DNA of 64,000 nt, from positions 450,236 through 514,235 of the forward strand of contig BQUP01000010.1 of assembly GCA_022835595.1 (NCBI GenBank), given 5' to 3'. A program made the position numbers and the translations under genes. The stretch is from Cystobasidium ongulense (Eukaryota; Basidiomycota; Cystobasidiomycetes; Cystobasidiales; Cystobasidiaceae). The notes under the pieces are model-generated. The model made no database searches, was not told where the DNA came from, and saw only the letters and a list, made by a program, of their open reading frames with translations. Below, piece after piece: positions 4,408 through 16,447 of this stretch. Within the stretch, counting starts at the first letter, position 1. Each line of letters begins with the position of its first letter.

Positions 4408-7400
4408 ATGCCCTATCCGCATCATCAAGATCATCAGCATCAGCAACTGGAAGGTGAAGCTGGACGGTCACCGCAGACGCCCAAGATCAAGCAGAGGCAA
4501 CAACAGCAAGGCACTCCATTCACTCACAGCAGCAAACCCACTCGCAGTCCTCACATCCGTCCCAGCCCTTCTCCAACATCCGCATCACCTTCTGCGCTCC
4601 TCAAGCACCGACACATCCACCGCGTTCCTCCACCAGCAATCCTGCCTCCCGTCCTGAGCTCGACCAACTCTGCACTACATCTCACACTCAGAAGCGAGGC
4701 AGGCTCGCATCTCAGCACGCAAGTCGACGAGCTACTGTCCCGACACCTCGCTCAGACTCCACCTGCTAGTGGCGGCACATCAGCGCACGTGAGATCCGGC
4801 AATCCGGCCATCAAGGACTCGAACGCGCTCCAATCTGCGTCTACTTCTCCAGTCGCATCTCAAGCATCCATCAGTGCACCTCCCCTCCCTCCGAAGTCTA
4901 CCAGTCCTGCAGGTCCGCGCACCGTCATGGCTACACCCCACCTTGATCAGCCCAGAAGGCCTCTACCCGTGCCGCCTAAGCAAGAATCGATACCTTATCA
5001 GTATCCAGCTAGCTATGGGCCATCGATATCCAAGATACGCTCTTTTCCAGCGGAAGTCCCTCTTCGCTATCACGGTTTGCCACCTGGTGCAGCTCACATG
5101 CCATCATCACTAATGCCAGGCAAACAAGGGCTAGTATACGGACATCCACATCCTCAAGTAGTAGCTAGTGCCTATGCAGATCAGTATCCCAAACCTGGAG
5201 GAAATATGAATGCCCCAGTCGCTCAACAGCAAAGCACCATCTCGCGAACATTTGCCAAAGGCGGCGCATCAATAATATTGCATAAAGGTTTCTTTGATCT
5301 CTTGTCACTATCAGCTTACAACTCACCTCAAGGCAATTCAACTCCTGCTCCCGACTACGGCCAAGGATGGCTAGGCGACAGGCCGATTGTACCATCTGCC
5401 GGAAGAGTAGTCACGAGCCCCATGTTTCGGGCACAACCTGTATCAGTACCAGCTCAGCAAGCGAAAGGGTATAGACGCATAAGTGTTGACATGATAGGAA
5501 AGCCTACTGGATTTGCGTAAGTCCATCAAACCCCTTCTACGGGCCAGGTCGCTGATTGTCCGCTCTGCAGGCATCTTGCACATGCTTCAGATGCAGAAGA
5601 AGCAGCAGACTTACTCACACGTTGGAAAATAGATGGAAAAGGAAAGCTCGCGGGTACGTCAGCAACATAATAGCACATTGTACGCTGAGCTAAAGATGCA
5701 TTGTGTGCTGCAGAGCCGGCCTGGGTGGCAGCCATCAAAGACGCTGCTCGGATACGAGCTAGGACCCGGGCTGTTGCCCAAGTACAAGCCAACATTGACG
5801 ATGAGCACCGGAAAGGCTCCCTGAAGGTCGTCAACGGCAATCCCGATTCTCTTATCAGCTTGTTCACGGATCGAGCTGTGGATGGCTCCCATCTACAAGC
5901 TTCACCTACTTCACCACTCTCGCACGAGCTGCCTACACCCGGGTTACCTCCTGCATCACCCATGCCTACCAACCTCCAGAATCCGATGGATGATGTGGTC
6001 ATCGTGCACGATGAAATCCCCTACAGACCTATCTTGCCGCCCCCGACGATACGAGCTTACACCAGCAACACTGTCGTCATACGCTCGGCGGACGCTCTTC
6101 CAGCGCTAGATACCACCAATCATACACCGATGAGTGATGGACCATCTGAAAGCTTGTCGTCTTATCCGATCAGAGCCCCTCTGCCAGATTCTACGAAGGA
6201 AGCCGATACACGTTTTAAACCCTCCCTCGAGACGGTTGAGAAATCCGTTGCGACAAAGATCTACCTTGAAAATCGCTACTATGCAATACTGAAGAGACCC
6301 CGAGACCGAGATCAACGACGAGCAGCATTAGAACGCGAACTTGCCTCTGCAAATATGTCTGATGCACAACGGAGAAGAATTCGAGCTGCTTGGACTCTAT
6401 CTGAAACGGAACATCTACGGGATTTGCGCAATAGAGTTAGTGTGAATTCATTCCAGAAGATTAAGACTATTGGACATGGTGCTTTCGGTGTCGTCTCGCT
6501 CGTCAAGGAGCAGGGTAGCGGAGAGGTCTACGCCATGAAACAGCTCCGAAAGGCAGACATGCTGCGAAAGGGACAAGAAGGACACGTCAGAGCTGAGAGG
6601 GATGTGATGAGTGCCGCTAGTAGCTCGTCTAGCAGTAGATGGATCGTAAGGCTCGTCTATTCATTCCAGGATGTAGATCACCTTTATCTCGTCATGGAAT
6701 ACATGGGTGGAGGGGATTTGCTCAACCTGCTTATCGAGAGAGATACCTTCGAAGAAAGCTTTGCAAAGTTCTACGTGGCAGAAATGGTATTGGCGATACA
6801 GGAAGCTCACAAGCTTGGCTATATACATCGCGACGTCAAAGTAAGCATCTTCACTACAAAATTTGACATTTCTGAATATGTCAGGACTGATTCATACAAT
6901 GACAGCCCGACAATTTCATCTTCTCGTCGGACGGCCATATCAAACTCAGCGACTTTGGATTGGCGACCGACCTTCACTGGTCACATGACGGCGCATACTT
7001 TGACGAACAACGACGCCAGCTTCTACGAAAGCATGGAATTGATCTCGAAGAAGGCAGCGTCATGAATGGCCGAAGACATCTCAACAACGCCTATAGCGGG
7101 CTGGATCTCATGGACTGTCCTGACACAGATGACGATGAAAAGACCCCTAATGGTGGATTGCTTACAATGAGGGAGAAATACCGCAAGAAATTGGCTTATT
7201 CTGTTGTTGGGACAAATTCATACATGAGCCCAGAGGTCATTAGGGGAACTGGTTACGATCAATCCTGCGACTGGTGGTCACTTGGTGTCATCATGTTCGA
7301 ATGTGAGTTTCGTGGAGCTGATTATCTCAGGGAAATACTTACTGAGGCCCCCTTTGAAGGTTTGTACGGCTTTCCACCCTTTGTTTCAAAATCTCGGCAT

Positions 7401-11059: not shown

Positions 11060-11985
11060 ATGTACGATTCGGACCAGAAGCTCTGCCCAATAGCCAGTGC
11101 TGACGCTTTGTTGTGATTCGTGCAGGCCGTCGAGCGTCCGAATCGTCAGAAAGGCAACGAACGGCGCGCCAGCTGCTGGAGACTCGACGTCGGCAACGCC
11201 TGCCGCGGATTCTTCTGCAGCAGTCACACCGCGAGAAGGCAGCTCAGACGACACTGCTGCTCCAGACGTCAGCGTGAGTTCCAGCGCAGTGAACGGCTTC
11301 GCAGCTGGGTTCCAATTGCTGAAGCTTTGCTGTTGATTGTCGGTCGAACAGAGCCTGATCGAAGAGCTCAACTATGCGAATGCACCACGACCCTTCAAGA
11401 ATCCCAATTATGCACAAAAGGTAGCTGGAAATAGGCGTGTGAAGACAGCCAAGCAGATTATCCAGCTGGAGCGAGAGCGTTACGTCAAGCCGAAGAAGAA
11501 AGCTCGAGTTGTCGCCCAGTCTCAGTCAGTTACCGCTGCGGGTACACCAGTAGATGGAATGGACTTGGACGATGAAGCTGCCCAAGCTGCTGCTGCTGCT
11601 GCTGAGGCCCTTGTAGAGCCAGAAGTCGTCCGGAAAGAGGACTATATCGCTTGTAAGGGATCCTATTTATACGTATTTCTGTGGCTACGATATGGAAGTT
11701 TGACGACCCGTTCCACAATAGACCATGAGTATGAAGCACCTCCTTCACTGCGCCCCTCAAAGAAATACTGTGACATTACTGGCCTTGAGGCCCCGTATAC
11801 CGACCCGAAGAGTCGGCTGCGATATCACAATGCAGACATCTAGTCAGTCCAGCTCCCGTGTACCCAAGTAGCGAAGCACTCTAACATTCTCTGCCTTTTT
11901 TGTCAGTGAACTGCTCAAGCAATTCTCCTCGGGAGCAGAGCAAGAATATCTTATGCTCAGAGGGCAAGGGATGGTCATCAGATAG
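11060..11985 (+). CDS. IES6: INO80 complex subunit Ies6 (YL1_C domain)
   Basis: Exons 11060-11061, 11126-11273, 11352-11652, 11722-11842 and 11907-11985 give about 216 residues. Ies6 (INO80C in animals) binds Arp5 and helps the INO80 remodeller grip and slide nucleosomes in the nucleus. The C-terminal half carries the YL1_C signature: [20 protein letters not shown], then [14 protein letters not shown]. The middle holds the conserved [11 protein letters not shown] stretch and a Lys/Arg-rich helix; an Ala-rich acidic linker follows. The N-terminus is variable, as in homologues. The proposed start codon is split: AT ends exon 1 and G opens exon 2, giving [10 protein letters not shown]. The frame upstream of 11060 is open back to an ATG at 10844, so a longer protein cannot be excluded. 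Intron 4 uses a GTCAGT donor. Confidence 0.85.
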
Positions 11986-12069
11986 CAAGGCGGAACGGGA
12001 GCAAGGCTGTATGCATGTCAACCACATTTGCTTTTCTTCTTTTCATTTATTGTCGTTGTATATCTACTT

Positions 12070-14939
12070 CTAAGCTTTGGGCACAACAGGCTTCTCAATC
12101 TTGGCGACCTTTGCCTTGAGCGACGTTGTCGAGGCCTTTCCATCTGGAATGACAATAAACTCCATCGTTCCTTTGCTATCTTCGCTTAAGTCCTTATCGC
12201 AAATGTAATAACCTTTACGTTCGAACTGAATAACATCTCCCTTCTTGACTTGTCTGACATTCGCATCGGCGTAGGCTTCGTCCTTGAACTCTGAAACGGG
12301 ATTGATGAAGTCGGTCCAGTCATCATCTTCTTCGATCTTCTTCTTTGTGATCAAGAAGTCGTAGTCCTTCAGGATGACGCTGACCAGAGGTGCTTTTTCA
12401 GAGATAGCGAGCCAGTGAACCTTCTTTGCTGTCTTCTTGAAGTCGCCCTCCAAGTGGAGCTGAATGTCCAATGACTTGATCGGTGTGTCATTGGTTGTGC
12501 CTTTCAAGATATAAGCATTGCCCCAATCCATGAAAGTGACTTCCTCATTTGGCTCGAAAGAGACGGCATCAGCTTGCTCGATGTACATCTTGGGGGCATA
12601 GGTGGTAGTCTTGTTGCCAATATCCAGATTCTTCTTGTGCTTAGGGATGGCCATTGTGGACTCCACAACAGGTGTACCATCCTCTTGAGTCACAGTGCAC
12701 TCGACACTGGGAGGATACATCAGACCAGACTACTTCCGCAAATTTGAGAGTACAATGACTCACGCATCCTTCTTCAAGACAGCGGTATATCGAGGTGCGA
12801 TTGGGTCGATGACTTGCTTGTTCATGCTCCAGATACCGTCCCATTCTAAAGAGGTGACAGCTTTTGAAGGTCCTTGAGAAAGCATGTATTGAGTTAAGGC
12901 TTCAATAGTTAATCCTCTTCGACGCATTCCTCGAACTGTTGGGAATCGTGGATCGTCCCAACCGTCGACAAGGTGTTTCTCCTCTACCATAGCCTTCAGC
13001 TTTCGCTTCGATAGAAGAGTGTAAACGAAGTTGATGCGGCTGTTGCGAAGTTGTGGCAACTAAGTTAGTTACACAATTGATGCAGCCCATGTAGCGCAAC
13101 TCACCCGTAATCCCAGATCTCTACGCGTGGCAAGTCTAGCGAATCCTGCATCCACCAATACTGTGGATTACGATCGTGATATTCATTCGTCCTCAAGCAG
13201 TGTGAAATTCCCTCCTTGGAATCGACGATAGGATTGGCGAAGTCATATGTAGGGTAGACTTTCCATCTGTCTCCCGTCTTGTGATGTGGGATCAGATTGC
13301 ATCTGTAGATGACAGGATCGCGCATTGCCTTGTTTGGATCGTCATACGAGATCTTGGCTCGTATGCACCATCTTCGTCCCTCTTCGCTTCCTGTTGTCAT
13401 CTCAGCAAATCGTGCTAGATTTTCTTCTATGCTTGCATCCCGTCGCTCAGAGGGAATACCGTCCATACGCTCGGCTCGCATCTAGCAGAAGAGGAATCTG
13501 TCAGCGAAAGCAAAGGCACGTCCTCTCGTAGGAGAAAGCTCGATAACACACCTTTTCTTGTAGCGTATCGTCAGCGTATGCCTTTCCTCTCTTGATCATC
13601 TCTACAGCTAGCTTGTAAAGGTCGTCGAAGTAGTCGGAGGTGTAGGTAACTCTGTCACCATGTACACCCATCATAGCTAGGTCTTCAATAATAGCTTGTT
13701 GGAACTCGGCCTAAAGAACAAGTACTAGTCAGCACGTCTTTAGCTTCAAGCCTTGTTGAACAGCTTACCTTCTCTTTGCTTGGGTTGGTGTCATCGTATC
13801 GAACGATGAACTTGCCTCCGTACATATTTGCGAAATGCTTGTTCAGGATGGCTAATAGACTGGCGTTAGCAGAGGTTTTCCGCAAATCTGCATCGGAACG
13901 TGTTGCTTACCAGCTGTAGGAGCAAAGGTAAAGAATGAATCAGTACAATTGTAACCTTGTCGCACTGGACGAAACGCTGTCACCTTTCGCATGTCCAATA
14001 TGTAGGTATCCAGAAGGCTCAGGTGGAAGACGGGTGACGACCCTTCCATAGACAGCATTGGGTAGCCCGAGCTCGAAAGAAGCGGCGGCGGATTTGGATT
14101 TGCCCTTGATTGCGTCTTTCTGAGCTTGAGCAAAGGCTGCGAGGGCTTCCTGCACAGCTGGCAAATTCTCGATATGCGAGTACCATCTTGCTAAGTGAGG
14201 GTGTAGGTTTCGCTTGAGGAGTCCTTGGAAGACAGATGAGCCTAGAGATAGACGTGATTAGCAAATAGGACCAATGCACCGCACTGGAATCGACGGAATG
14301 AGCTGACTCTTTGCTGCTCCCCAAACTGCGAAATCAGCAGCCGTAGGCTTGTACCCGACGATATAGGAGCGGAGAGTAAGACGACGGTCTAGGGCATCAG
14401 CTGCAGTAGAAGCAGTCTGAAAGTTGGCAGTCTTGGAGAAGTTGGTTTCAGCAAAACTGATCCACTCGTTGATCTAAGGAGGAGTCAAGCGGGCGAATTG
14501 TCGGTGAGCTTTACAAACGAAAGACAAGCTTGTGACCATTGCACACCTCATCAGACTCGGCCTTGTTGGCTCCCAAGACCCCAAGTGCAGCGAATGCTTC
14601 AGCCAGCGACTTGATGATTGCTATAGGCGCAGTTGTCGAGGAACTGGTAGCAGCAAAATGATGCGGTGATCGAGGATGCAGGATGATGGATTGGAGAATT
14701 GCTCGAGTCAGCGACCTTTGACAGTCGAGAGACGGTGTCCTAGTGTGCTTTAATAATCTAGCCTACCTTCCACTCTCGAGCTTGACTGTCTCGCTGGCAT
14801 CGGCAGCCTTGTCCTGATAGTCGATAGTGACCACGCCCTCACTGCCGGCTTGAGCAGCGAGCTCTCCAGCGAGCGCAATCACGCCCCACGCTGGAGGGTT
14901 GGCCCGTGTGTATAATGTGAGCTTTGATGTTGATGCCAT
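12070..14939 (-). CDS. GUS1: Cytosolic glutamyl-tRNA synthetase
   Basis: Ten exons (14939-14767, 14643-14547, 14473-14308, 14241-13984, 13913-13911, 13851-13769, 13710-13552, 13481-13105, 13039-12764, 12706-12070) encode 742 residues. The enzyme charges tRNA-Glu with glutamate in the cytosol. Residues 1-190 form a GST-like appendage, as in fungal enzymes that bind Arc1. The class I catalytic core starts near 205 with [14 protein letters not shown] (HIGH motif), then [32 protein letters not shown] and the KMSKS-equivalent LLSKRKL. The C-terminal beta-barrel anticodon domain is complete. Exon 5 is only 3 nt (CTG) and restores the conserved HAKAA. The exon 8/9 junction was chosen to give [14 protein letters not shown], matching the family better than an upstream acceptor. 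It shares a 246-bp divergent promoter with the Eri1-type gene. Confidence 0.93.
13911..13913 (-). other. GUS1: 3-nt microexon of GUS1
   Basis: The exon CTG is flanked by CCTACAG acceptor and GTAAGC donor. The neighbouring introns are 70 nt (13914-13983) and 59 nt (13852-13910), each with its own branch-like site (ACTGATT and GCTAAC). With it the protein reads HIGHAKAAILNKHF, the family consensus; skipping it would lose one alanine only. Confidence 0.75.
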
Positions 14940-15185
14940 GGCTTAAGCTGGCAAGTTGGCTGTTCTACCAGTTGGAGCCGGTCCAAGTTTCGAAGGCCTT
15001 CTGTGCACTTTTTTGGCTGCCTGCTGCTGGCAGTTCTTTCCTCTGCACATACTTGCAACAAGCACGAAATACACGTTTAATACACAGCGAAGACATGGAC
15101 AGCTGAAGCACAGGAGAATCGCACGCGCAGGCTGGAGTAGCCCTCGCGAAGGGCCTTCTTGCTCCTCGCGGACACGCACACGCCC

Positions 15186-16447
15186 ATGGAGCAGGTAGCG
15201 ACTGTTGACGCTCTTCGCGAGGCGCTCGGCGCGCTCAAGCTGGACACGAGAGGCCACAAAGCAGTCCTCAAAAAGCGACTACGAACAGCGAGGAAGGCGC
15301 CGTCAGCCGAACATGTCGAAATAAGCACCAAATCGAGACGACCCGCAAGCCAGGACTTTGATAGCTACCTCGTGCTGGACTTCGAAGCTACATGTCAGCA
15401 ATACGTGCTTGGCCAAGGGAGTCGCTTTGATTTCCCGAATGAGGTATGCACGTCCTCTTATATCCATTGACCTTCGTATACTAATATCCAGGCTCTAGAT
15501 CATCGAGTTCCCTGTGTTGCTATTGCAGTGGCGCCATAACGAAGCTACATTGTCAGACAAGGCGACATCCAGCGATAGTTCCTCAGACAGTGACCCAGAC
15601 CAGGCCAGTCCAGATCTGGAACACGATGAGCACGCTTGGGAGCTTGTTGTAGTCGACGAGTTCAGACAATTCGTCAAACCAACCTGGAGACCCAAGCTGT
15701 CTAAATACTGCACTGAACTGACAGGCATTACGCAGGTGAGGTCCTGAGGCTCTTTAGTATACATATCAATTTAAACTGACTTGTGTTACACAGGACGATG
15801 TCGACCAGGCAGGCACCTTTGTTCAGGTCTTGCAGGCCTTCAAAACGACCTTTATTCAGCCATACAAGCTGTTCACGAAACACAACAAGACAGCATGGGT
15901 AACAGACGGTCAATGGGTAAGCTTGACACTCGTCAATCTGCGCAGCTATTCAGATGGGTAATTAATTATTCGTTACTTGCAGGATCTTCGCGATTTCGTT
16001 GCTAAGCAATGCTTCATCTCCTTTGTTCCACGTCCATCATGGCTGAAAGGACCCTATATCGACCTTCGCTCATCGGCAACTGCCTATTTAGCTCGAAAAA
16101 TGCCCGTTGTCATTGAAGCAGTCGAAACACCTGAATCTGTCCTAGATGACGAGGGATACATTAATACTACAAGTCCAAAAACTACAGTCTTGATACCTAC
16201 AACGCGAGGGTTGGCGACTCCGAATATCCCAGCGGTATTGAAAGCATTAGGTCTAGAACCCTTCGAAGGACGACAACATTCTGGTATTGATGATGTTAGA
16301 AATATAGCTAGAATACTACAAGAGTTGGTCCAACCTGAACGAAATTGGAGAGTAGCGGCAAACGCCAAGATTGAGGGGAAGGATAAATCCTGGTATTGGA
16401 TGAGAAGTAACGGTAGGATAGCTTGGAAATATCCACTCGACGACTGA
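15186..16447 (+). CDS. ERI1: Eri1-type 3'-5' exoribonuclease with SAP domain
   Basis: Four exons (15186-15443, 15499-15735, 15794-15916, 15983-16447) encode about 360 residues. Residues 4-35 match a SAP motif (LREALGALKLDTRGHKAVLK), the same N-terminal module found in animal Eri1. The DEDDh nuclease begins with DFEAT (residues about 65-69), continues with KYCTELTGITQDDVDQA and VTDGQWDLRDFVAKQC, and ends with HSGIDDVRNIARILQEL, which supplies the general-base His and last Asp. Eri1 enzymes trim 5.8S rRNA and histone mRNA 3' ends and can degrade small RNAs. An acidic Ser/Asp insert of about 30 residues separates the first two nuclease motifs, and a second insert precedes the His motif; both look like surface loops. 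Two of its three donors are GTATGC and GTGAGG. Confidence 0.88.

Follow-up and report, generated by a model that had tools for sequence, protein, structure and literature searches.

Immediately downstream of the HIGH motif, the glutamyl-tRNA synthetase (GluRS) gene of the basidiomycete Cystobasidium ongulense is interrupted by a segment in which three bases, CTG, are framed by ordinary splice signals. This raises the question of whether these bases constitute an exon of only three nucleotides or the interior of one longer intron. In order to address this question, we analyzed the gene within its window (the whole stretch of 64,000 nucleotides of contig BQUP01000010.1, positions counted from its first letter). 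We consider it very probable that the CTG at 13913-13911 forms a true coding exon of 3 nt, constitutive for the most part, with the enzyme reading GHAKAAILN at the fixed length of its family. This assessment is based on the sequence itself, on the absence of a second route to the family length, on a spacing that is fixed among relatives and on inner splice sites that are strong.

The host gene and the predicted microexon

In our own gene model, the gene extends from ATG to stop across positions 12070..14939 on the minus strand and comprises ten exons, including the 3-nt one, which together encode 766 residues. The host protein reached 521.2 bits with TIGR00463, exceeding the curated cut-off (401.75) for archaeal/eukaryotic-type glutamyl-tRNA synthetases, while its 361.6 bits with the glnS model are under the cut-off of 425.8. 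Pfam domains assigned to the protein were PF00749, both anticodon-binding domains and GST_C, with the GST_C-like sequence forming the N-terminal part. A Pfam row for a skip fragment, made with a piece shorter than the full protein, was left aside. The host enzyme is a cytosolic-type glutamyl-tRNA synthetase. The glutaminyl-tRNA synthetase (GlnRS) gene of the same genome (L009, minus strand) shows an apparent intron directly before GYLHIGH; the HIGH block is therefore interrupted in both the GluRS and the GlnRS gene, at different points.

All elements of the predicted microexon are located on the minus strand. The upstream exon (13984..14241) carries the HIGH codons at 14002-13991 and ends with GGA CAT GCG AAA G. 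It is followed by intron A (13914..13983; 70 nt, GTGACA...CCTACAG), which combines a weak donor with a strong acceptor and contains a CTGAT branch candidate with its A at 13940. The predicted CTG exon (13911..13913) would complete one alanine codon with its bases 2 and 3 and open a second one with base 1 (G|CT G|CC). Intron B (13852..13910; 59 nt, GTAAGC...CTATTAG) shows the opposite arrangement, with a strong donor, a weak acceptor and a CTAAC branch candidate (A at 13866), and an AG at 13860, 6 nt past this candidate, has to be bypassed. The downstream exon (13769..13851) begins with CC ATC CTG AAC AAG CAT TTC. Lying between canonical GT...AG introns, the predicted exon falls into the class of ultra-small microexons (≤15 nt). 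Both flanking introns are of viable size, 70 and 59 nt compared to a median of 65 nt, and each has a candidate branch site; a CTRAY sequence at comparable distance was present in 78 of the 121 confidently predicted introns of this genome.

Inclusion of CTG yields AAA GCT GCC ATC CTG AAC (K-A-A-I-L-N, i.e., GHAKAAILN), whereas skipping, by removal of a single intron of 132 nt (13983-13852), yields AAA GCC ATC CTG AAC (K-A-I-L-N, GHAKAILN). Since an exon of three bases leaves the frame unchanged, either product stays open, as the first-pass annotation of this DNA had stated. That annotation had also proposed the 3-nt CTG exon after HIGH and its two-intron route, and all the features it named were found on the minus strand. 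Its length for the skipping intron, 124 nt, has to be corrected to 132 nt; an intron of 124 nt would end at the 13860 AG, after which an in-frame TAG follows at once.

Splice-site strength favors inclusion

For a homology-free view of the locus, a gene finder was self-trained on 242 kb of the genome (the window and 19 further loci), resulting in 66 genes and 285 introns, 121 of them confident and with a median length of 65 nt. This was the third training, the two before having degenerated (1150 introns in 13 genes; one confident intron). The gene finder chose precisely the structure 13984 | 13913-13911 | 13851, a result to be read with the fact that training was seeded from seven other introns of the GluRS gene and that later rounds took in the tested one. 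At the 5' end of the gene, exon 2 begins at 14643 according to the gene finder, compared to 14715 in our own model. The first intron (window 14766-14644, minus strand) may accordingly end at 14716, as we placed it (51 nt), or at 14644, as the gene finder did (123 nt), a difference of 24 residues in the N-terminal part.

Splice-site models were then built from 113 self-predicted introns, with the GluRS gene left out. Among these introns, the inner sites ranked high (acceptor A, 96th percentile; donor B, 82nd) and the outer ones low (donor A, 4th; acceptor B, 7th). The earlier description of both introns as normal therefore holds for their length, branch candidates and inner splice sites; the two outer sites are weak. 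The two-intron route scored 6.4 nats ahead of the single intron, a gain matched in 0/5000 simulated introns. Elsewhere in the 242 kb, none of 1932 GT..AG stretches of 132 nt contained an equally good internal exon of 3 nt, nor of any size between 1 and 15 nt. Sites of the form AG-NNN-GT that passed the thresholds (acceptor 4, donor 5) occurred four times in 485,004 strand-bases, the CTG site being one of them. Among its 224 internal exons, the gene finder gave four others of 0-3 nt; two predicted 1-nt exons look false, because on inspection the skipped letters continue as plausible protein. A search for the telomere repeat TTAGGGGG gave no match, with a search method that may skip repeats.

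Both introns combine a strong end with a weak one, and it is the strong ends that border the microexon. Skipping would have to pair the two weak outer sites across 132 nt, past the stronger inner ones, and should be rare; near-constant inclusion is therefore expected. CTG would then complete two alanine codons just past HIGH. As three bases cannot hold factors on both splice sites at once (there should not be space for U1 at donor B together with the 3' splice-site factors at acceptor A), the two short introns would be removed one by one, by intron definition. Our guess at the order is that intron B, with its strong GTAAGC donor and CTAAC branch, would leave first, followed by intron A, spliced onto the strong CTACAG acceptor.

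A regulated exon would behave differently: inclusion and skipping would both occur at a controlled ratio, and the skipped form would be a full-length enzyme minus one residue, probably inactive. The frame-neutral length, two open products and canonical outer sites are compatible with such regulation, and a glucose-dependent microexon switch has been reported for Trichoderma Xlr2 in the available excerpt of PMC11121469. We nevertheless consider regulated skipping quite unlikely, given that the much stronger inner sites predict steady inclusion. Furthermore, the RNA around the microexon folds no better than shuffled sequences (z 0.05), and no Rfam match was found within window positions 11500-15500. 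A broader proposal, namely that this compact genome repeatedly uses 3-nt exons in fixed-length motifs and that inclusion of the GluRS exon serves to control an essential synthetase without affecting the frame, appears decidedly improbable as well. If it were true, skipped transcripts would give full-length enzyme lacking one residue after HIGH rather than decayed mRNA.

The additional residue matches the fixed length of the family

Next, we listed all routes from GHA to N that use a single intron or a pair of introns (GT or GC to AG, each of at least 35 nt). Of 35 open in-frame routes, just one, in which CTG is an exon, delivers KAAIL and thereby the family's five residues. The previous claim that the two-intron reading gives the family's HAKAA is thereby borne out: it is the sole route of family length, and site and intron-length scores favor two introns. 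The predicted CTG exon is needed for the family protein.

The protein including CTG scored higher than the skip protein with all ten synthetase models of NCBIfam; an eleventh match, an oxidoreductase model on the GST-like part, scored both equally. Using the 292-residue core as query, inclusion was also superior against 44/44 matched PDB sequences, a set in which several entries represent variants of a single protein. Eukaryotic relatives enter this comparison as PDB sequences.

The spacing from GH to R.DDTN was determined in bacterial relatives, represented by the best 80 of 588 confirmed ones, which are GlnRS-like by sequence and were partly found via the pattern GYLH[IV]GHA. It amounts to 21 in 77/80 and 22 in 3/80, with one locus, carrying F in place of R, counted by eye; in the three relatives with spacing 22, the additional residue sits after the N. 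In a further 30 loci obtained with a bacterial GluRS model (two of them representing one gene, and one recounted by eye), the motif was present in 26, all with spacing 21 (26/26), and absent from four. Counted by eye, the genome's own GlnRS and organelle-type GluRS likewise show 21 each, whereas the skip form would have 20. Viral contigs were searched for relatives too; two stretches matched a pattern, neither of which is a relative.

These comparisons bear directly on the possibility that the 132-nt intron 13983-13852 is simply removed as a whole, leaving this species one alanine short after HIGH (GHAKAILN). Such an intron would have canonical GT and AG ends and an open frame, and 4/113 confident introns are of this length or longer. 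However, it would join the two weak outer sites and create a spacing of 20, found in 0/80 relatives and 0/26 further motif-bearing loci, and its product scored lower than inclusion in every synthetase comparison; we regard it as very improbable. That the additional residue comes from a nested stwintron, or from a single intron of non-canonical type, has next to no chance: although stwintrons are described, in the literature excerpts available, for several fungi, one more residue from a single outer pair would by inspection need an intron starting with ACAGCG or ending with TCTAT, which could result neither from canonical ends nor from a donor or acceptor that is split, while a canonical two-intron route exists. 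Inspection also placed CTG outside both introns, each of which has complete ends of its own, so that the locus was rejected as a stwintron, and a single intron with ends shifted to win one residue was discarded because a canonical site is absent. Donor GTGACA is presumably unlike the U12 consensus, which speaks against a U12-type intron.

Comparison with known tiny exons

That three bases are near the lower limit of exon size, as assumed at the outset, agrees with published exons as small as 1 nt. A close fungal case is the 1-nt exon of Fusarium CYP621A, shown by RNA reads (PMC12940212). Like the predicted CTG exon, it is a tiny exon in a fixed-length motif of a fungal gene, needed to assemble the protein, and lies in an apparent intron of more than twice the median length with ordinary AG and GT borders. 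In contrast, it measures 1 nt, is required for the frame and belongs to a P450 gene, whereas the CTG exon is 3 nt long, frame-neutral, part of an essential synthetase and predicted from sequence.

In plants, 1-nt exons are described for APC11 and VPS55 in the available part of PMC8831610. According to the excerpt of PMC4674806, the Arabidopsis APC11 exon is constitutive and was tested by reporter constructs, and intron definition combined with successive removal was proposed for it; PMC8378409, as excerpted, proposes intron definition for microexons. The APC11 and CTG exons share the ultra-small size, constitutive inclusion (probable for CTG) and the proposed successive removal by intron definition; APC11 differs in being a plant gene with a reporter-tested exon of 1 nt. 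Exons of 3 nt are known in animals, for example in mouse Ncam (PMC8042270, in excerpt), and 3 nt was the smallest size known in 2015 to be alternatively spliced, as stated in the accessible text of PMC4674806. The Ncam exon resembles the CTG exon in size and frame neutrality but resides in an animal gene, while inclusion of CTG is probably constitutive. The P450 genes of Phanerochaete chrysosporium provide another fungal example of small introns with microexons, the latter, however, of at least 6 bp, the shortest given in the excerpted text of PMC1184071.

The '3-bp exon 2' of Ganoderma gpd belongs to a larger exon, as far as the available text goes, and in the excerpts of PMC3990503 and PMC8022950 microexons come up solely as a search setting. 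Among the matches listed in the open-licence literature, judged by titles and the beginnings of abstracts, there was neither a 3-nt exon in a fungal gene nor a microexon in a fungal glutamyl-tRNA synthetase.

With the GluRS locus, the few exons at the lower size limit are joined by a probable constitutive one of 3 nt, located in an essential housekeeping gene and beside the catalytic signature. Extrapolating from PMC12940212 and the available part of PMC8831610, the CTG exon is likely to escape automated annotation as well as short-read mappers, so that the synthetase would be reported one residue short. Introns A and B would also make a simple natural minigene for studying how the spliceosome handles two sites with three bases between them, and which intron is removed first.

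Further predicted ultra-small exons

In a gene for an MFS transporter (L013:1116-1118, plus strand; contig C1, 601116-601118), GTG was predicted as another 3-nt exon, bordered by strong sites and located between introns of 69 and 79 nt. Its inclusion gives WRWGYRM and its skipping WRGYRM, with MFS_1 scores of 77.9 and 75.5 bits, respectively. The match to a transporter paralogue on contig C12 extends to residue 56 and resumes at residue 61, and the 164 bases in between would offer room for the same double intron.

At locus L026 (minus strand, plus-strand positions 7382/7383), two predicted introns of 74 and 62 nt abut at AG|GT with an exon of zero length between them. This arrangement may represent either one intron of 136 nt or a recursive (zero-length) splice site, and the resulting protein is the same either way.
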